A stretch of DNA of 53,369 bases, taken from contig JASJCP010000018.1 in NCBI GenBank assembly GCA_030065935.1, positions 1 to 53,369 on the forward strand, given 5' to 3'. Each line of letters starts with the position of its first letter. Position 1 is the first letter of the stretch. Both the position numbers and the translations under genes were made by a program. The stretch is from Xenococcaceae cyanobacterium MO_167.B27. Lineage in GTDB: Bacteria; Cyanobacteriota; Cyanobacteriia; Cyanobacteriales; Xenococcaceae. Shown here one piece after another: positions 8,099-19,604 of this stretch. A model generated the notes under the pieces. It did no database searches, was not told the DNA's origin, and worked only from the letters and a program-made list of their open reading frames with translations.

Positions 8099-9133
8099 AT
8101 GATGAACACTAAAAACTTTTTTCTACTAAAAATCGGTTTAGGAGCAGGACTATTTTTGGCTCACTTTGGATTATATAACAACTCAGCATATGCTGTATCT
8201 TTGAAGTATCGTACAACTAATTCCAGCCTAGAAAATCTTTTAACTACTGACTTTGATGTAGAAGAAGAATATACATTGATCCCCTTGAGTGAGTCATTGT
8301 CTATTTGGGATGAAATAAAATCAGAGAATCTGCCATTAACAGAAGCTATTGCATTTCAGATAGAAACATATCAAGAGCAGCCAGAGAAACTATTAACGTC
8401 ACTGATTACATCATTACAAGGATTAGAATTTGACCAAAATATAGGGGATTCTGGTGAAAATACAGTTCAAATCTTATCTCAAACAGGTTACGAAGATATC
8501 TATCAAGATATTTATGACTTTGAAACTGAATTAACCAATGATTTTCAACAGCAGCCAGAAAACAATCTACAAAGGCGTGCAGACAATAGGCAACCTTCAG
8601 ACTTTTTTGAGCCAAGTATTTTAAGCTACACCTACACATCCGATAGGTCGATAACTAACTATTTAGAAAATACCACGAGTCAAATTTCTACACTACGTTC
8701 TCTATCTCAAGAGTCTACAATACCACTCACTACTTCTTCTTACTACACTGGAAGTACTAGTTCATCACAGCAAGGTTATTCGGTTCAGAATCTTTCAAAC
8801 CTCAATGGTGGAATAACAGGGCTCCAAAGTCAATACGGAGTTTCCAATAATTTTTCCCTTCCCTCTAGAGAAATAGCAATTGAAACCACAAATTTTAACA
8901 ATATTAAACTACCATCCATTCAAAAAACACCAGAGCAAATAAAATTAGAGGAAAAATTAGAAAAACAGCGTGAACAAATGGAAAAAAGAATAGAAAAGTT
9001 AAAAGAAAAGCTAGAAAAAGACCGAGAAAAAAGAGAGCAACAACGAGCTAAAGAACAAGAAAAGAGAGCTAGAGAACAACAAAAAAGGTTAGCACAAATG
9101 AGAAAATTACAAGAGAAATCACGCAATAGGTAG
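8099..9133 (+). CDS. Secreted or periplasmic protein with C-terminal charged coiled coil
   Basis: The 344-residue protein starts with a signal peptide (positive NTK start, hydrophobic core about residues 10-22, AYA before residue 34). The middle is low-complexity and rich in Ser, Thr, Gln and Asn. From about residue 280 to the end it is an almost pure Lys/Glu/Arg/Gln heptad repeat (EEKLEKQREQMEKRIEKL and onward), predicted to form a long helix or coiled coil. No catalytic motif or known family was recognised. The 300 bases upstream contain no other gene and probably hold its promoter. Confidence 0.6.
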   Translation: MMNTKNFFLLKIGLGAGLFLAHFGLYNNSAYAVSLKYRTTNSSLENLLTTDFDVEEEYTLIPLSESLSIWDEIKSENLPLTEAIAFQIETYQEQPEKLLTSLITSLQGLEFDQNIGDSGENTVQILSQTGYEDIYQDIYDFETELTNDFQQQPENNLQRRADNRQPSDFFEPSILSYTYTSDRSITNYLENTTSQISTLRSLSQESTIPLTTSSYYTGSTSSSQQGYSVQNLSNLNGGITGLQSQYGVSNNFSLPSREIAIETTNFNNIKLPSIQKTPEQIKLEEKLEKQREQMEKRIEKLKEKLEKDREKREQQRAKEQEKRAREQQKRLAQMRKLQEKSRNR

Positions 9134-9230
9134 TTTACATTAGTTATAAAATGGTTGAGATGTTAATTGCGCTCTTGCTAATTATTAATTATTAATTGTT
9201 GCAATAAATATCTAGCTAGCTAGTAGAAAC

Positions 9231-10193
9231 TTAAGGGTGTACACTGCCATCAGGCATAATAGTACCTTTGAGATTAATCCCACTTAGGACACTATTTTTG
9301 AGATTAGCTCCTCTTAAATCTGCCCCTCTAAGATAGACATCAATCAGGCTAGCATTCTCTAAATCAACTTGTCTAAGATCGGTCTTATATAACAGTGCAA
9401 ATCTTAAATTAGCTTTGGTTAGATTTACTCCTGATAAAATTGCTCCACTAAGATTAGCAGAACTTAAATCAACACGACTAGGTTGGTTAAATCCTGCTAA
9501 GTTTAATTCAGATATAGTAGCTAAACTGCTACTTACTTCTTTCAATATAGCTCCTGTCAGGCTAGCAGCACGTAAGTTAGCATTACGAAAATTAGCTCCT
9601 TTGAGAGTAGCTTGGCATAAATTTGCTTTCCGTAGATTACTTTCACTTAAGTCAGCTTTATTGAGATTAACTTGGGTCAAATCCGCACCATTGAGATTAG
9701 CACCACTTAAATCAGCACGACTCAGATTAGCAGAACTTAAATCTACTCCACTCAGATTAGCACCACTTAAATCAGCACGACTCAGATTAGCACCACTGAG
9801 ATTAGCAAGACTCAGATTAGCACCACTGAGATTAGCATCACTGAGATTAGCATTAGTCAGGATGGCTTGATTAAGATTAGCATCACTCAAATCAACTCTT
9901 ACTAAACTAGCTTGATGAAAATTAACCCAACTAAGATCGGCTTTCCCTAAATCCGCAGCCTTTAAATTAGCTTCTACTAATTTAGCTCCAATTAATCTAG
10001 CATGAACCAAATCGGAACGGCTAAGATTGGCTCTAGTTAAATTTGTCCCACTAAGATTAGTCCAATCAAGCTCAGTACGACTTAGATCAATTTCTTCTAA
10101 ATCCGCTTGAATAATCTCTGCTTGACTAAGATCGACCCGACTAAAATCCCTTTGTCCTGTTTTATAAAGCCATAGTAGTTCTTCGCCATTCAT
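9231..10193 (-). CDS. Pentapeptide-repeat protein
   Basis: The 320-residue protein is built almost entirely of A(D/N)LXX pentapeptides (ANLSG, ADLSG, ANLSR and similar) from about residue 20 to the end. The only interruption is a short stretch near residues 215-240 (KEVSSSLATISELNLAGF). Such sequences fold as a right-handed quadrilateral beta helix. The start has a short non-repeat cap, NGEELLWLYKTGQRDF, common in cyanobacterial members. No signal peptide is evident, so it is probably cytosolic. Function is unknown. At DNA level the gene is a run of imperfect 15-base repeats, so the opposite strand also stays open; that reverse frame is not a gene. Confidence 0.85.
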   Translation of the reverse strand: MNGEELLWLYKTGQRDFSRVDLSQAEIIQADLEEIDLSRTELDWTNLSGTNLTRANLSRSDLVHARLIGAKLVEANLKAADLGKADLSWVNFHQASLVRVDLSDANLNQAILTNANLSDANLSGANLSLANLSGANLSRADLSGANLSGVDLSSANLSRADLSGANLNGADLTQVNLNKADLSESNLRKANLCQATLKGANFRNANLRAASLTGAILKEVSSSLATISELNLAGFNQPSRVDLSSANLSGAILSGVNLTKANLRFALLYKTDLRQVDLENASLIDVYLRGADLRGANLKNSVLSGINLKGTIMPDGSVHP

Positions 10194-10254
10194 TTAAATA
10201 GAATATGTGTACTAATAGTTATTTCGTAAAAACCCAACCCTTAGAGTTCCCCAT

Positions 10255-11127
10255 CTAAGTTATAAAGTAACTATTCCTATCCACTTTCGAGATACAAGAG
10301 TCTGTCTCTGCTACTAGCTGATCTAACTGTTGCTGCATCTTTTTTACCACTAGTTCATAACAAGAATTTACATAATTGCGATCGCGACTTGGTTGAGAGC
10401 CAGATTGGGAGTCGTATTTCTCAAACCAGATAGGAGGACAAACTCTCAGCCTAATGGGTACAGGTAAAGGAATATTGGGTAGTGGTCCAATAGCAATTCC
10501 CCAAGGAAGACCCAGATAAATCGGGAAAACTTGAGGGTCAAGATTGAATAGCCAAGGCATTCCCCAGCGATGTAACTGTTTAGCTTGCTCATAAAAATCA
10601 GCTAACACAATTAGAGTATCGTGCGCCCCTGTAGAAATAATGGGGATAATGGGTACTTTGTATTTTAGAGCAAGTTTGATAAAGCCTTTGCGTCCTGCAA
10701 AATTAATTTTATTTCTTTGAGAATGAGGACGAAATACATCTTGTGCGCCCCCTGGATAGACCAGAACACTAGCATTACTTTCTAGGGCTGCGATCGCCAT
10801 TTTGGGATGAGCTACGATTGCTCCTGTTTTTTCTGCTAACTGTGCAAAACTGGGATTAATTTTCCAAACGTGGGGGTGCATTAGACCATAGGTAGGGCGA
10901 TGAGTCCCGAAATGTCTAAACCAGTCATACATCGCCATAATCATATCTGGTGTAGCCATTCCCCCATTATGAGAACCAACTAGAAGCACTGGGTTTTTAG
11001 GAGGTATGTGTTCCCAACCATCACTTTGCACTCGAAAATAATACTTATAAAACCATCTCCAAAAGGGCATCAAACCCTGGATAGTTTCAGGATTTCTGGC
11101 TTTTAAAGACCAACCACGATGATTAAT
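10255..11127 (-). CDS. Lysophospholipid/diacylglycerol acyltransferase-family protein, probable ATT start
   Basis: The protein has acyltransferase features: SHNGGMATPD (a histidine-to-aspartate acceptor motif with unusually wide spacing), PGGAQDVFRP, a long KGFIKLALKYKVPIIPI strand-helix unit and HDTL. These resemble the DGAT2/LPLAT-like group that includes cyanobacterial slr2103-type acyltransferases. That assignment is by memory of motifs. The first ATG is at 11073, but coding-like text continues upstream in frame (NHRGWSLKARNPETIQGL) as in relatives. A strong AAGGAG lies 7 bases before an ATT at 11127-11125, and no ATG, GTG or TTG precedes it before the in-frame stop. Initiation at ATT would give 290 residues. 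Membrane-associated lipid acylation is the expected role. Confidence 0.7.
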   Translation of the reverse strand: MNHRGWSLKARNPETIQGLMPFWRWFYKYYFRVQSDGWEHIPPKNPVLLVGSHNGGMATPDMIMAMYDWFRHFGTHRPTYGLMHPHVWKINPSFAQLAEKTGAIVAHPKMAIAALESNASVLVYPGGAQDVFRPHSQRNKINFAGRKGFIKLALKYKVPIIPIISTGAHDTLIVLADFYEQAKQLHRWGMPWLFNLDPQVFPIYLGLPWGIAIGPLPNIPLPVPIRLRVCPPIWFEKYDSQSGSQPSRDRNYVNSCYELVVKKMQQQLDQLVAETDSCISKVDRNSYFIT

Positions 11128-11205: not shown

Positions 11206-11793
11206 CTACCAAGTTAGATAAGGTAAATTAGATGCTGTGGTTTGAATTGCTGATTCATTTTGAACTAATTGACCACAGTTATCCCATGTACCTTTAATAA
11301 ACATCTGTTTTGAAGCAGGGTTCATAGCTACTGCTGCGGTTAAATCTCCACAAACTACGGTCATGGTTTCGAGATTAATTTGTATATTAATCTCAGGATT
11401 ATCTTGAAGTAAATTCTGTATTTGTTGAACTATATCTGCTGATGCAGTTACACAAGGAACACCAATAGCAGTACAGTTACCCAAGAAAATTTCCGCAAAG
11501 CTTTCCCCAATAATAGCTTTAATCCCCCATCGAGATAGAGACTGGGGTGCGTGTTCACGGGATGAACCACAACCAAAGTTAGCATTTACCACCAAAATAT
11601 TAGCGTTTTGATATTGAGATAAGTCAAAAGGATGTTCTCCTTGTGCTTGGGTGCGGTCATCAGCAAAAGCTTGTTCTCCCAAACCATCAAAGGTAACACA
11701 GCGTAAAAAACGAGCAGGAATAATACGGTCTGTGTCAATATCATTACCTACTACTGGAACTCCCTGACCAATAATTTGTTTAATTTGACTCAT
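11206..11793 (-). CDS. leuD: 3-isopropylmalate dehydratase small subunit
   Basis: LeuD pairs with LeuC to isomerise 2-isopropylmalate to 3-isopropylmalate in leucine biosynthesis. The 195-residue protein has the LeuD signatures [15 protein letters not shown] near the start and [12 protein letters not shown] in the middle, which bind the substrate's distinguishing side chain. Length is normal for the short LeuD type. leuC is not adjacent. The final residues (SNLPYLTW) run slightly past the usual end. It lies 79 bases upstream of the acyltransferase gene on the same strand. Confidence 0.95.
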
Positions 11794-11860
11794 AATTTCT
11801 GGTGATAAAAATTAGAACGTTGCTGAAACAAGGTATGAAGTCAATAATAATATGGTTCGT

Positions 11861-12040
11861 AGCTATCAGCTATTAGCTGTTAGCTTTTTCAAATCATACT
11901 CGCTCTTGAGCAACACCGAAAATTGAAACAGCACATCCATTGAAGAATGTGCTGCATAAATTATCAATTATCAGTTCAACACTAAGTTAAATCACTAGCA
12001 TCAGCTTGATAACTGTTTACTGTTTACTGATAACTGATTA
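11861..12040. repeat. Short-sequence repeat patch between leuD and ftsH
   Basis: The spacer holds imperfect short tandem repeats: AGCTATCAGCTATTAGCTGTTAGCT at 11861-11885 (split here as AGCTATCAGC and TATTAGCTGTTAGCT) and AACTGTTTACTGTTTACTGATAACTGATTA near 12011-12040. Such heptad-like repeats are common in cyanobacterial spacers. No coding capacity is seen. Confidence 0.5.
11929..11954 (-). terminator. Probable terminator of ftsH
   Basis: CAGCACAT (11929-11936) pairs perfectly with ATGTGCTG (11947-11954) around a 10-base loop. On the minus strand the hairpin is followed by TTTCAATTTT. It lies 90 bases past the ftsH stop. Confidence 0.6.
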
Positions 12041-12043
12041 AAC

Positions 12044-13894
12044 CTAAGCCAAAGCTGCCATTTTTACATCGTTGTTAGACAGAATCTCTTGTAATTCATC
12101 TGCATCAACTGTTTCTTTTTCTACTAGCATTTCAGCTAATTGATCGAGAATGTAACGGTTTCCTACCAAGACATCTTTAGCACGACGATAAGCTTGATCT
12201 ACTAAGTTACGGACTTCTTCGTCAATAGCAGCAGCAGTTTCATCGGAGAAATCGCGGTCAGAAGCAATATCTCTACCGAGGAAAACATTACCGTTTTGAC
12301 GGCCGAGAGCAACAGGTCCTAAGCGATCACTCATTCCGAAACGAGTTACCATTTGACGCGCCACTCTAGTGACTTGCTGTAAGTCGTTAGAAGCACCAGT
12401 AGTTACTTCTTCATCACCGAAAATAATTTCTTCAGCAATACGACCACCTAAAGCAACGGCCATTTGGTTTTGCAGATAAGAACGAGAATATAAACCAGAT
12501 TCCATACGGTCTTCGCTAGGAGTGAACCAAGTCAAACCACCAGCACGTCCGCGAGGGATAATGCTGATTTTTTGTACGGGGTCATAATCTGGCATTAACG
12601 CACCGACTAAAGCGTGTCCTGCTTCGTGATAAGCTACCAATTCTTTGCGTTTTTCACTCATTACGCGGTTTTTCTTCTCTGGTCCTGCTAAGACGCGATC
12701 GATCGCATCATTAACTTCATCCATCGAAATTTCGGTGAGATTACGACGGGCTGCTAAGATAGCTGCTTCGTTGAGTAAGTTGGCTAAATCTGCACCAGTA
12801 AACCCAGGAGTACGACGAGCAATTTTATCTAAATCAACATCTTTTCCTAAAGTTTTACCGCGAGCATGGACTTTGAGGATTTCAGTACGTCCATTGTAAT
12901 CAGGGCGATCTACTACTACTTGACGGTCAAAACGACCAGGACGCATCAGAGCAGCATCAAGGACATCAGGACGGTTAGTAGCAGCGATGATGATGATACC
13001 TGTATTACCTTCAAAACCATCCATCTCAGTTAGTAACTGGTTGAGGGTTTGTTCTCTTTCGTCGTTACCGCCTCCTAAACCAGCACCCCGTTGACGACCA
13101 ACTGCGTCAATCTCATCGATAAATACGATACAAGGAGCATTAGCTTTAGCTTGTTCAAAGAGGTCACGGACACGAGAAGCACCCACCCCAACGAACATTT
13201 CGACGAATTCTGAACCAGAAATACTGAAGAAAGGTACACCAGCTTCCCCTGCGACAGCTTTAGCTAGAAGGGTTTTACCTGTTCCAGGAGGACCCACTAA
13301 GAGAACTCCTTTAGGAATTTTTGCCCCAATAGCTGTGAAGCGGTCTGCGTTTTTGAGGAAATCTACTACTTCAGTAAGCTCTAGTTTGGCTTGTTCGATA
13401 CCTGCTACATCACCAAAGGTTACTTGGGTTTTAGGCTCCATTTGGACTCTGGCTTTAGATTTACCAAAGTTCATCGCCTGAGAACCAGGGCCACTTTGCG
13501 CTCTTCTGAGTAAGAAAAACAACCCAACAAGTAAGAGAATAGGGAAGAAAAGACTGCTTAAGGCTCTAAACCAGAATCCCTCATCACCTTGGGGTAAAAC
13601 CGCAATATCTACCTGATTTTCCATCAAAATATCTATAAGTTGTGGGTCATTGGGTAGATTGACTAAGACGGGGTTGCCTTCTTGGTCGGTTACTAGGGCT
13701 TTAGTGCGGTCAGCACTGATTTTTACAGTTTCAACTTTGTTATTCTCAACTTGGTCAATTAGTGTGCTGTATGCCCAAGTTTGACGAGCTTGAGGTTGTT
13801 GATCTAGAAAGGCTGTACCGAGGGCTACCACTACTATGGCAAGTAGTACGTATAGTCCTGCGTTCCGCCATTTTTTATTATTGTTTTTGCTCAC
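12044..13894 (-). CDS. ftsH: ATP-dependent zinc metalloprotease FtsH
   Basis: Membrane-anchored AAA+ protease that degrades damaged membrane and soluble proteins; in cyanobacteria the paralogs include those that remove damaged D1. The 616 residues contain two membrane helices (about 11-30 and 109-129) bracketing a small lumenal or periplasmic domain, Walker A GPPGTGKT (201-208), Walker B IVFIDEID (256-263), the second region of homology ending RPGRFDR (318-324) and the zinc site HEAGH (423-427). All catalytic residues are present. Length and the [11 protein letters not shown] start recall the 616-residue FtsH3-type paralog, which is tentative. Single gene, divergent from msrA across a 262-base spacer. 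Confidence 0.97.
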
Positions 13895-16910: not shown

Positions 16911-17383
16911 TAACATTGATTTACATAAATGGTTAGTGGCTTTAGTTAAACCAGAATATCCTTGGTACTATGAAGGAAGTTTTGATCGGGTGCGCCACAA
17001 TATGCTTTAAGGCATTTAAGACGAGCCTGGGATGATTGTTTAAAAAAGCTAAATTACCACCACGCTTCAAGAAAAAAGATAAGTCGGATAGTTTTACGCT
17101 AGATGGCTCAATAACTGTAGAACGTAACAGAATTAAAGTCCCTAGAATCGGCTGGTTAAAAACCTATGAAAGATTACCGACCTGTATTCAACCCAAATCA
17201 GTAACTATTAGTAAAAGAGTGTCGAAGTGGTTTATTAGTTTTAAATTATAAATAACTCCCAAAAATCTAGCTCCCTTGGATAAACGGGGCTTACAAGCTC
17301 CCGACGCAGGTTCGGGAGACAGCCCCTCGCCAATAGGGATAGATTTAGGAATTTTAAGATTTGCCACATTAGAGATTAATTGA
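16911..17383 (+). pseudogene. IS200/IS605-family TnpB remnant
   Basis: Successive plus-strand frames spell TnpB in order: DLHKWLVALVKPEYPWYYE, then YALRHLRRAWDDCLKK one frame over, then RFKKKDKSDSFTLDGSITV and RIKVPRIGWLKTYERLP, SKWFISFKL, a TAA stop, and on in the same frame to GIDLGILRFATLE with the first RuvC aspartate. It ends at a stop at 17381. At least two frame changes and one nonsense codon make it inactive, and the zinc-ribbon half is missing. No intact TnpA or element ends were recognised around it. Confidence 0.85.
17286..17326. repeat. Strong nested palindrome inside the tnpB remnant
   Basis: GGGGCT (17286-17291) pairs with AGCCCC (17321-17326), and inside it CTCCCGA (17298-17304) pairs with TCGGGAG (17312-17318). 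The element is G+C-rich in an AT-rich setting and reads in frame within the linker before the GIDLG motif. It looks like a REP-type palindrome inserted into, or coopted by, the transposase gene. Confidence 0.6.
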
Positions 17384-17425
17384 TATTAGAGTAAGCAATA
17401 AATTAACGTTATCGAAGACCTCACT

Positions 17426-17866
17426 TTAAGCCCATATTCTCCCTATTTGACGGGGTGAAGAAGCATCTTCAAGGACTTTCGATATGTAGCGAAGCAATGT
17501 ATAGCCTAATTGTGCTTCCGTTTTATTATCTTTCGCTATTTTCCTATCCATGATCTTTAAACACTGTGCAATATCATAAGAGTTATTTTCCTTAAGTATT
17601 GCCTTCATATCATCCTTTAATTTCAGATCGTCCAACTTTTCTGAGTCTTGAGAAATGTGACTTTCTATATAATTTTCTATGGTTATTAGACAATGTAATG
17701 TTTTCTTGTTAATTTCTTCTTCTGATGCTGATGAAGCACTCCTTATTTTATTGTGTAACTCCTCGATATATTCCATGAACTGCTCCACAACAGAAACTTC
17801 TTCTTCAACAGGCTGAGCTACTGATTTAACCTTGTCTGAAACAGGTTTTGACTTTACAGACTTTTT
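17426..17866 (-). pseudogene. Frameshifted C-terminal extension of the PatA/PatG-like protease
   Basis: This reading frame continues the upstream protease after a one-base shift at the A5 run (17862-17866, read on the minus strand). Removing one A would join GMYGWKVNEK to SVKSKPVSDKVKSV and on through VEEEVSVVEQFMEYIEELHNK. An independent start at 17788 (ATG) would give 120 residues. The extension is hydrophilic, helical-looking and rich in Lys, Glu and Ser, ends with a stop at 17426, and matches no family I recognise. It may be a C-terminal arm of the protease or a separate small gene that became fused. Confidence 0.5.
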
Positions 17867-19604
17867 CGTTAACCTTCCAACCGTACATCCCGCGAGTATT
17901 TAATGGTTGAATAAGAGGAACAACCTGACCAGAAAAAAGGGTGACAGTTTCACCTGTCAAATATGCTGGGACGGAAATCCGCTCAATGTAATTGTCATCC
18001 TCCTTGTCCAGAACTTGCCCAGCGAGAAACTCTTGTAGAAACTGATAAACTGCTAAAGCCAAAGGGGCTTGTGGCTTAATGGCATAAATGGGTGTTAGTT
18101 CCAAATTTAGCGTCCAAATCAGTGATGCAGCCTCGAAAATATTGTTTTCTAGATAGTTTGCCATCTGTCTGGCATCATAGGGATTAGCTGGAACTTCAAT
18201 CGCATCAGGTGAGACTTTCGGCGTAGCATGACGACCAGTAGCAGGCAGACCGTTATCTGACCAGACCATAGGCATAAGCTGCTTAAAGCTATCTCGCCGA
18301 GCCTCTGTTCCGAAGTCGTAACCAAGGGTTCCTAGGGCATAAACTAAGGACATTGGTGCGTTACTCGGGGTAACTGACGACGCTACTGTGCCTCCGTTGC
18401 ACCCACAGTCCGCAGAAGGGACAACATTAGACGAAGTTGCTACATTATTAGACGTGACACTCATTGGATTTTCCGAATGCTGAATAGTTGTTGGAATAGA
18501 TGATTCTGAGATAGATGATTCTGAGTTTGTTGTTTCCGCTGCCTGGATGCCAATTTCTGACGACTGGAGGGCGGATTCTCGTAAACTAGGAGCAATAGCC
18601 TCACTCGGTTCTATTTGGTTTATTGGGTCAGTTTCTTCTGGCGTAGAGTCTTTAGCCTCACTCGGTTGGATGACGACTTCTTCTGATTTCTGGTCAGACA
18701 CTTCTGTTAATCCTCCTTTTGTAATTAGGGTATAAGCCCCAGGGATGTTAAGACTTCCTGCTAAAAAACGACGGCAATCTTCGACTATTTCTGGATTGCA
18801 AGGCAGTGCTGTTTTAAGGATTGCCTCACGGATAGCATGGGGATTGGGCTTTTCTCCCTGCGCTAGTTGAATACTAAGTAGCAGGGCAACAATGCCTGAT
18901 ACTATGGGCGTTGCGAAACTGGTGCCACTTCTTGGGACAATTCCGCCACCAGGTTCTGCACCTAAGATTTTTTCTCCCGGAGCTAGGATGCCTTGATGTT
19001 GATAAATCTTGCCCCAGTTACTATAATCGATGGGCAATCCTTGGGCATTCATGGCACCGACAGCTAACACTGAGGGTAAAGCAGCAGGAACGTGAAGACA
19101 ATCACAGGCATCGTTTCCCGCAGCAGCGACAATCAGAACGCCCTCATCATTACAAAACTGAACTGCATTCGCTAAAATCGGATCGGCATCTCCTGATTGA
19201 CTCAGTTGACCACCACTGATGTTAATCACATGGGCTCCAGCCTCAACTGCTTGGTTAATCGCTCGTGCGAGATCCATCTGGGAAAGCTTTCCCCTTTGGC
19301 TATCTGAGAACACCGGAACAATTAGCCCACGACATCCAGGTGCAATACCAGGAACAGGGCTATCTTGTTGACCAAATATGATGCTAGCAATATGGGTTCC
19401 ATGACCCGACATCAAACCACTGCCAGCATCATCTGATACCAGTGTCGGCAAGCGAGAAAGGTTAGCTCCATCAAAGCAGGGATGAGACTGGTCAACGGTT
19501 CCATCTAACAGGGCAACGCATATCCGAGGATCACCAACAGTTTGAGTCCAGATAGACTCTATTCCAGGTAATTCGACCACTTGAGTCATATTAGCTCCTG
19601 TCAT
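17826..19604 (-). CDS. PatA/PatG-like subtilisin protease with cyanobactin-type C-terminal domain
   Basis: The 592-residue frame opens with an S8 subtilase: Asp34 in ALLDGTVD, His68 in SGHGTH, the oxyanion Asn164 in AAAGND, and Ser229 in SGTSFATP, so the triad is complete. Phrases such as GDPRICVALLDG and DQSHPCFDGANL match the cyanobactin proteases PatA/PatG closely. A low-complexity Ser/Glu-rich linker (about 300-405) ends in CGCNGG. The second domain (about 418-577: LVYALGTLGYDFGTEARRDSF, NPYDARQMANYLE, EAASLIWTLNL, TPIYAIKPQ, LFSGQVVP) resembles the non-protease domain of PatA/PatG. There is no signal peptide. The last 15 residues follow a frameshift. No precursor peptide, heterocyclase or prenyltransferase gene was seen within the window. 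Confidence 0.8.
   Translation of the reverse strand: MTGANMTQVVELPGIESIWTQTVGDPRICVALLDGTVDQSHPCFDGANLSRLPTLVSDDAGSGLMSGHGTHIASIIFGQQDSPVPGIAPGCRGLIVPVFSDSQRGKLSQMDLARAINQAVEAGAHVINISGGQLSQSGDADPILANAVQFCNDEGVLIVAAAGNDACDCLHVPAALPSVLAVGAMNAQGLPIDYSNWGKIYQHQGILAPGEKILGAEPGGGIVPRSGTSFATPIVSGIVALLLSIQLAQGEKPNPHAIREAILKTALPCNPEIVEDCRRFLAGSLNIPGAYTLITKGGLTEVSDQKSEEVVIQPSEAKDSTPEETDPINQIEPSEAIAPSLRESALQSSEIGIQAAETTNSESSISESSIPTTIQHSENPMSVTSNNVATSSNVVPSADCGCNGGTVASSVTPSNAPMSLVYALGTLGYDFGTEARRDSFKQLMPMVWSDNGLPATGRHATPKVSPDAIEVPANPYDARQMANYLENNIFEAASLIWTLNLELTPIYAIKPQAPLALAVYQFLQEFLAGQVLDKEDDNYIERISVPAYLTGETVTLFSGQVVPLIQPLNTRGMYGWKVNEKVCKVKTCFRQG

Follow-up and report, generated by a model that had tools for sequence, protein, structure and literature searches.

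A PatA-type protease gene with an out-of-frame arm is probably a deletion-fused remnant of a peptide-maturation locus in a Xenococcaceae cyanobacterium

Introduction

Is a cyanobactin-type protease that stands apart from any recognizable cluster, and that is followed by a long open stretch in another frame, a new kind of enzyme or a damaged gene? The window analysed here (the whole 53,369-nucleotide contig JASJCP010000018.1 of Xenococcaceae cyanobacterium MO_167.B27) raises this question on its minus strand. An earlier note, made from the sequence alone, described an orphan PatA/PatG-like protease whose highly charged arm could be joined to it by removing one A from a run of five, and left the choice between a stand-alone protease with a new C-terminal arm and a recently broken gene.

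Results

The protease lacks the second half of its C-terminal domain

The reading frames, triad motifs, A5 run (17866-17862) and second open frame of 146 codons were found as the earlier note had described them, including the ORF at 17426-17788 (minus strand). The protease ORF at 17826-19604 (minus strand) reads as 592 amino acids, the last 13 codons of which are an out-of-frame read into the arm gene. The 5′ part of the patA-type gene proper (17867..19604, minus strand; 579 codons and one base) contains the whole subtilase domain, the linker and the first ~40% of the C-terminal DUF, with no internal stops. Its product matched TIGR03895 with 597.3 bits, above the curated cut-off of 421.05 and thus within the PatA/PatG-type proteases, and matched the Pfam families S8 (121 bits) and PatG_D (52 bits). 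D34, H68 (HGTH) and S229 (GTSFATP) are present, which we take to be the full catalytic triad.

The match covered positions 1-480 of the 606 in the TIGR03895 profile, and the absence of the last ~126 was the first hint that the gene had been cut, not extended. In a structure comparison run with the intact Okeania relative described below, the closest solved chains were PatA-type proteases, and structure 4uvq (PatG-DUF) aligned to residues 461-715 of that protein. The homology of the window protease to the Okeania protein ends near residue 568, inside the DUF, so that no complete C-terminal DUF is encoded. On sequence comparison, the tail that is missing makes up the later half of the PatA/PatG DUF. 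The second cyanobactin-protease domain that the earlier note had seen is therefore present as a PatG_D region, but incomplete. The window protein shares the subtilase domain, linker and PatG_D region with the PatA-type N-terminal cyanobactin proteases (TIGR03895; PDB 4h6w, 4h6v and 3zxx); it differs from them in lacking the second DUF half and in its place in the tree, on a different branch from the PatA proteins of PatG-bearing clusters. Five Streptomyces plasmid records contained S8 peptidases ~50-54% identical across roughly half of the query, indicating that the protease domain has relatives outside the cyanobacteria.

Intact relatives continue into a DUF tail and a conserved gene order

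The nearest relative, in genome G026, was 78% identical to the window protease, and a scan of named genomes added Okeania sp. SIO1I7 (locus L071, 80%) and Nostoc sp. TH1S01 (L072, 76%), both metagenome-assembled genomes (MAGs). The DUF tail (137-156 residues after MYxW; YYDLRNLG...CWDV...) is absent from the window and was present in all eight relatives, including that of G026, that were matched by a narrow RGMYxW motif among 29 loci (L016-L044). It was kept to its end in 25 of the 26 other fetched loci when these were tested with the Okeania protein, the exception being L129. In the Nostoc locus, three genes come after the intact protease gene: one for a short peptide with LPKQVAPVQR, a PatB-like one, and one of ~206 aa whose product ends in ...PRQIGRIWS. 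The same gene order is common to L045, L046, L047, L071 and L072.

The arm corresponds to the 3′ end of a patC-position gene

The arm frame (17426..17866, minus strand) runs uninterrupted through 146 codons, from 17866 to its stop codon at 17426, and ends QIGRIWA-stop; relative to the Nostoc gene it lost the start codon and the first ~26 codons. In a two-sequence comparison, it was 42% identical to the product of the ~206-aa Nostoc gene over 180 columns (E 6e-37). A protein search of 27 family genomes, 388 class genomes and plasmids with the arm returned the window itself as its sole match, and the L072 homolog gave three further weak matches among 291 genomes (E 0.0008-0.009). The 315-aa gene of L045 was first taken as the arm homolog for its QIGRIWA end; its similarity outside the shared end was marginal (score 60, with 3 of 500 shuffles as high), and L072 now carries the case. 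Given the lack of class matches and the weak likeness to L045, the identity of the arm rests mainly on one Nostoc MAG and the C-terminal motif. On this sequence evidence, the arm is the 3′ part of the gene in the patC position of relatives and no new domain. Matches of the arm in Pfam and NCBIfam (CENP-Q, arsC_related and others) were all under the curated cut-offs and were set aside, and the idea that the GRIW tail is a regulatory or signal-peptide element was dropped for want of evidence.

The patC-position gene is hypervariable, coding for 57, 58, 80, 206 and 315 aa in L046, L047, L071, L072 and L045, respectively. In all five loci it stands after patB, and its products end (Q/I)(I/V)G(R/C)IW(A/S/C)-stop, a GRIW[A/S/C]-type C-terminus that reads GCIWS in L071. 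The relatives' arm gene thus resembles PatC/TenC/TruC (TIGR04447) both in following a PatB-like gene and in its tail; in contrast, the arm and its homologs lack the GLEDYGFWW part. TIGR04447 matched neither L045's gene nor any of five solo-type sequences (those of L046, L047, L071 and L072, and the arm), and we therefore speak of a PatC-position gene and not of PatC. Five loci with a second PatA/G-type protease (L119, L121, L123, L124 and L126) have ORFs ending FRRGRIW[S/A/C], and TIGR04447 matched all five ORFs taken, one from each. No GRIW-tailed ORF was found in the other 17 solo loci, save two short GKVW-type ORFs (L049 and L114) taken as chance. The PatC-type protein of L121 (11185-12699, minus strand; 504 aa) carries Laminin_G_3/ConA-like lectin domains ahead of its TIGR04447 tail, and PatC proteins seem to combine a constant GRIW tail with N-terminal payloads that vary.

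A deletion relative to Nostoc sits exactly at the A5 run

Alignment of the DNA placed window 19552-17867 on L072 10038-11726, window 17866-17818 on L072 12949-12997, and window 17707-17426 on L072 13201-13491. At the junction (17866..17867, minus strand), L072 11726 is joined to L072 12949, and 1222 bp are absent relative to L072; in Nostoc this stretch codes for the DUF tail, the short peptide and the PatB-like protein, and it includes the arm gene's first 26 codons. Identity on the protease side was 77.5% to L072, ending at 17867, and 84% to L071, ending at 17865; the exact breakpoint is set by L072, and two extra protease-side bases are possible by L071. The deletion coincides with the A5 run aacgAAAAAgtc (17862..17866, minus strand), which aligns with the codons AAA AAG in the patC-position gene of Nostoc, where five A's are likewise present (TCT AAA AAG). 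The earlier suggestion of a recently broken gene agrees with this deletion. The absence of a precursor, which it had also pointed out, is real but secondary, since the precursor-like peptide and the PatB-like gene of L072 sit in the deleted interval.

Because both parental frames are preserved up to the joint and the Nostoc gene also has five A's, the frame mismatch is attributable to the deletion itself. A one-base assembly error at the run, hiding a continuous DUF-truncated fusion of the PatA-type and PatC-position proteins that works as one protein, is quite unlikely in our judgement. A one-base change would indeed join the frames, neither of which has stops, and the two kinds of gene do share loci; however, the present length of the run is the one expected from Nostoc, the fused protein would still be missing over half of the DUF, and the arm is unmatched in any other of the 388 class genomes and is a separate gene in L072. 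Removal of one A, as the earlier note had proposed, is thus not needed. Slippage on five A's, programmed or transcriptional, is unlikely. A programmed frameshift was rejected: the arm frame would need +1 at a five-base run, and L072 has two separate genes.

No full set of partners of an active cluster was found in the genome

The genome of the window (G000) is a draft of 282 contigs, 98.6% complete. It had one PatA/G-type match at E<=1e-40, that is, no second such protease, and three weaker subtilase matches (E 1.6e-18 to 2.5e-12). YcaO, or heterocyclase D, an optional gene, was absent from the genome; PatB had no match in it, and precursor gene E had none with two precursor models, nor any in the window by a leader-motif scan. 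Of the genes of an active cyanobactin cluster, a second protease, a precursor E and the optional heterocyclase D thus had no match in this genome. According to the accessible part of a review, active clusters always carry both proteases A and G, while genes B and C are conserved and non-essential (PMC4663559). Of the latter two, the genome has no match to B and retains the 3′ remnant of the C-position gene, so that the earlier statement that no other cyanobactin gene is seen held for the precursor and the heterocyclase but not for the arm.

The draft state of the genome, with its many contigs, could in principle have allowed the 1.2 kb to be dropped or misjoined in assembly. We consider such a misassembly very unlikely, as the DUF tail (in a search made without a positive control), PatB and the precursors were not found elsewhere in this nearly complete genome. 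A stand-alone RiPP-like or regulatory protease with a genuinely new C-terminal arm is extremely improbable: the catalytic domain is intact and shows no visible decay, but the arm is out of frame and homologous to the 3′ part of a separate downstream Nostoc gene, and relatives continue into the DUF tail at this point.

The flanks of the remnant

The similarity to relatives extends past the arm into the conserved 3′ flank of the patC-position gene (17376..17425, minus strand), where window 17449-17376 matches Okeania L071 12989-13066 with 77% identity. A degraded TnpB-like fragment (16915..17371, plus strand), which we assign to the IS200/IS605 type, adjoins the arm remnant; longer TnpB-like ORFs elsewhere in this genome, on contigs C94 and C121, match it at 79-82%, and its own ORF had no Pfam match. 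Downstream peptide genes of the L045/L072 type were not found in the window by the leader-motif scan, nor a methyltransferase of that type among the neighbouring ORFs tested by Pfam. Upstream of the L045, L071 and L072 proteases lies a divergent AAA_35 or NB-ARC-type gene (identified by Pfam for L071 and L045, and by sequence resemblance alone for L072); upstream of the window protease there is a GNAT acetyltransferase gene instead. Rfam gave no match on the window. Farther along, the window encodes a HicB-family protein (PF05534; 14971-15541, minus strand), and an adjoining short ORF without a Pfam match may be its HicA partner.

Most solo-locus proteases share a branch of their own

We call a locus solo when no second PatA/G-type protease occurs in the fetched stretch (~12-22 kb; for the window, the whole 53-kb contig), with the proviso that at some of them a PatG may lie just beyond, since their stretches reach the contig end (e.g. 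L047, L072 and L111). In a quick tree of 49 protease domains, 22 solo-locus proteases, the window's included, fell on one branch (SH-aLRT 88). The other branch (SH-aLRT 100) held 22 proteases, 16 from PatG-bearing loci and six of unknown status, and the solo protease of L115 sat on a long branch outside the solo branch.

At the genome level, where up to four candidates were scored per genome, a single PatA/G-type match (E<=1e-40) was found in 11 of the genomes with solo loci (G026, G120, G098, G160, G059, G116, G232, G124, G043, G068 and G255). Three genomes from the genus of the window strain, 76-81% complete, gave no match at this threshold. Genome-wide absence of a second such protease is not general, because eight solo-locus genomes (G190, G141, G099, G107, G221, G246, G203 and G284) have further matches elsewhere. 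A YcaO search covering eight genomes found none in G000, G026 and G098, nor in two genomes with a second PatA/G-type match, G183 and G272; YcaO lay on other contigs in G120 and G190, and in G141 on C3 and on C5, 267 kb from the solo locus.

Genes for patatin-like phospholipases (PF01734) recur near solo-PatA loci (L049:12130-13254, L113:3116-4270 and L116:11899-13050), and similar ORFs were seen in L071 and L117. LCM-type methyltransferase genes (PF04072), possible modifying enzymes, stand near the peptide genes (L048:10198-11055, L072:14113-14967 and L113:5243-6100), with similar ORFs in L045, L047 and L049.

Relatives carry small peptide genes with a shared leader

Besides the window, there are 22 solo loci, and 21 of these have small ORFs that begin with M..LPxQxxPVxR or a near variant of it; L129 had no convincing one. 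Many of the leader peptides contain G(V/L/I/M)(E/D)(A/P)S ahead of amphipathic or Cys-rich cores. Thirteen cores, hand-picked as amphipathic-type, measured 21-42 residues and were mostly amphipathic, 10 of them exceeding 95% of their own shuffles and three not; other cores are Cys-rich. Anacyclamide/piricyclamide precursors (TIGR04446) share the LPxQxxPVxR start and the GVEAS-type site with these peptides, which match that model below threshold; the solo-locus peptides differ from them in their amphipathic or Cys-rich cores and in having no further PatA/G-type protease within the stretches fetched.

A model built from 11 such peptides found matches at E<=0.001 in 21 of the 291 order genomes. 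Every one of these 21 belongs to the set of 87 genomes that have a PatA/G-type protease (hypergeometric 1.5e-12), an association that is partly circular because five genomes gave seeds and the 87 include PatG-bearing loci, some peptides of which also match. Thirty-seven of its 40 matches lay <=6 kb from a PatA/G-type match, and the other three were on contigs without one. A broader model matched 37 of the 291 genomes at E<=0.01, 31 of which belong to the 87 and the rest being G007, G010, G060, G182, G184 and G233. In G007, a Cys-rich LPVQAQPVMR peptide gene (L131:8897-9190, contig C160) stands near a transposase-like ORF, in a 15-kb stretch without a PatA-type protease. Next to the solo-PatA locus of L130, Cys-rich peptide genes that are nearly identical to one another (MNLPIQSQPINRQVTA...) lie in tandem (11544-12422); part of one is masked.

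Discussion

Our analysis suggests, with high probability, that the window feature is a deletion-fused and probably non-functional remnant of a solo-PatA-type peptide-maturation locus. A deletion of ~1.2 kb would have fused the patA-type gene, within its DUF-coding part, to the patC-position gene at codon ~27; in Nostoc L072 the latter lies three genes downstream of the protease. Lost in this way would be the end of the DUF, a single LPxQxxPVxR peptide gene, the PatB-like gene and the beginning of the arm gene, and the two frames would have been left out of register. The predicted product consists of an intact subtilase domain, half a DUF and 13 junk residues, and the arm, having lost its start, is probably not made. 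We infer that this was a single and recent event and that biological function was lost. The protease domain could still be able to cut, although the genome searches turned up no substrate for it. Counting only positions at which Nostoc and G026 are identical, 12 replacements fall on the window lineage against 31 on Okeania, and dN/dS between window and Okeania is 0.24, somewhat higher than for other pairs (0.13-0.16). This pattern, together with the intact frame, fits a recent break or residual selection.

Judged by its gene content, the solo branch looks like a variant form of cyanobactin-type peptide maturation that has no PatG next to the protease. PatA-like enzymes are reported, in the available part of one paper, to cleave after G(L/V)E(A/P)S (PMC10885120). 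From this published rule and the precursor sequences, the enzyme of the intact relatives most likely cuts after G(V/I)(E/D)(A/P)S, which would free small unmodified or lightly modified peptides. We lean, by a modest degree of belief, towards regarding these relatives as a distinct system, in which a lone PatA-type protease without PatG beside it, and often with none in the genome, would mature unrelated small peptides (amphipathic bacteriocin-like or Cys-rich) that share the LPxQxxPVxR leader and often G(V/I)(E/D)(A/P)S, some loci adding PatB-like and hypervariable GRIW-tailed helpers; the window would be a recently broken copy of it. As the accessible part of the review states that A and G always occur together in active clusters (PMC4663559), a separate branch of loci with no PatG beside the protease, and with amphipathic and Cys-rich precursors, would widen the uses of these leaders and proteases, if the products are made. 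No description of PatG-less solo-PatA loci was found in the portions of the open PMC literature covered. The intact relatives thus raise the question of what a PatA-type protease produces without PatG for ring closure.

For the window itself, an apparent new protease domain becomes a worked example of ordinary operon decay, and a warning that out-of-frame extensions should not be read as sequencing errors. The partial text of one report describes the piricyclamide cluster of Microcystis aeruginosa NIES-843 as inactivated through insertions that hit pirA and a frameshift that hit pirG (PMC3428304). As far as that text goes, in both cases rearrangement has silenced a cyanobactin-type cluster, and mobile elements and a frameshift are present; the window differs from NIES-843 in the fusion, by deletion, of its patA-type and patC-position genes and in belonging to a locus type that has no PatG close by. 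A PatA-type gene without most of the protease domain and with the DUF kept was also observed in a same-genus genome (L050, G001:C222, ~9093-10340), where it is 36% identical to the Okeania protein across residues 226-715 of the latter and is possibly another decayed copy.
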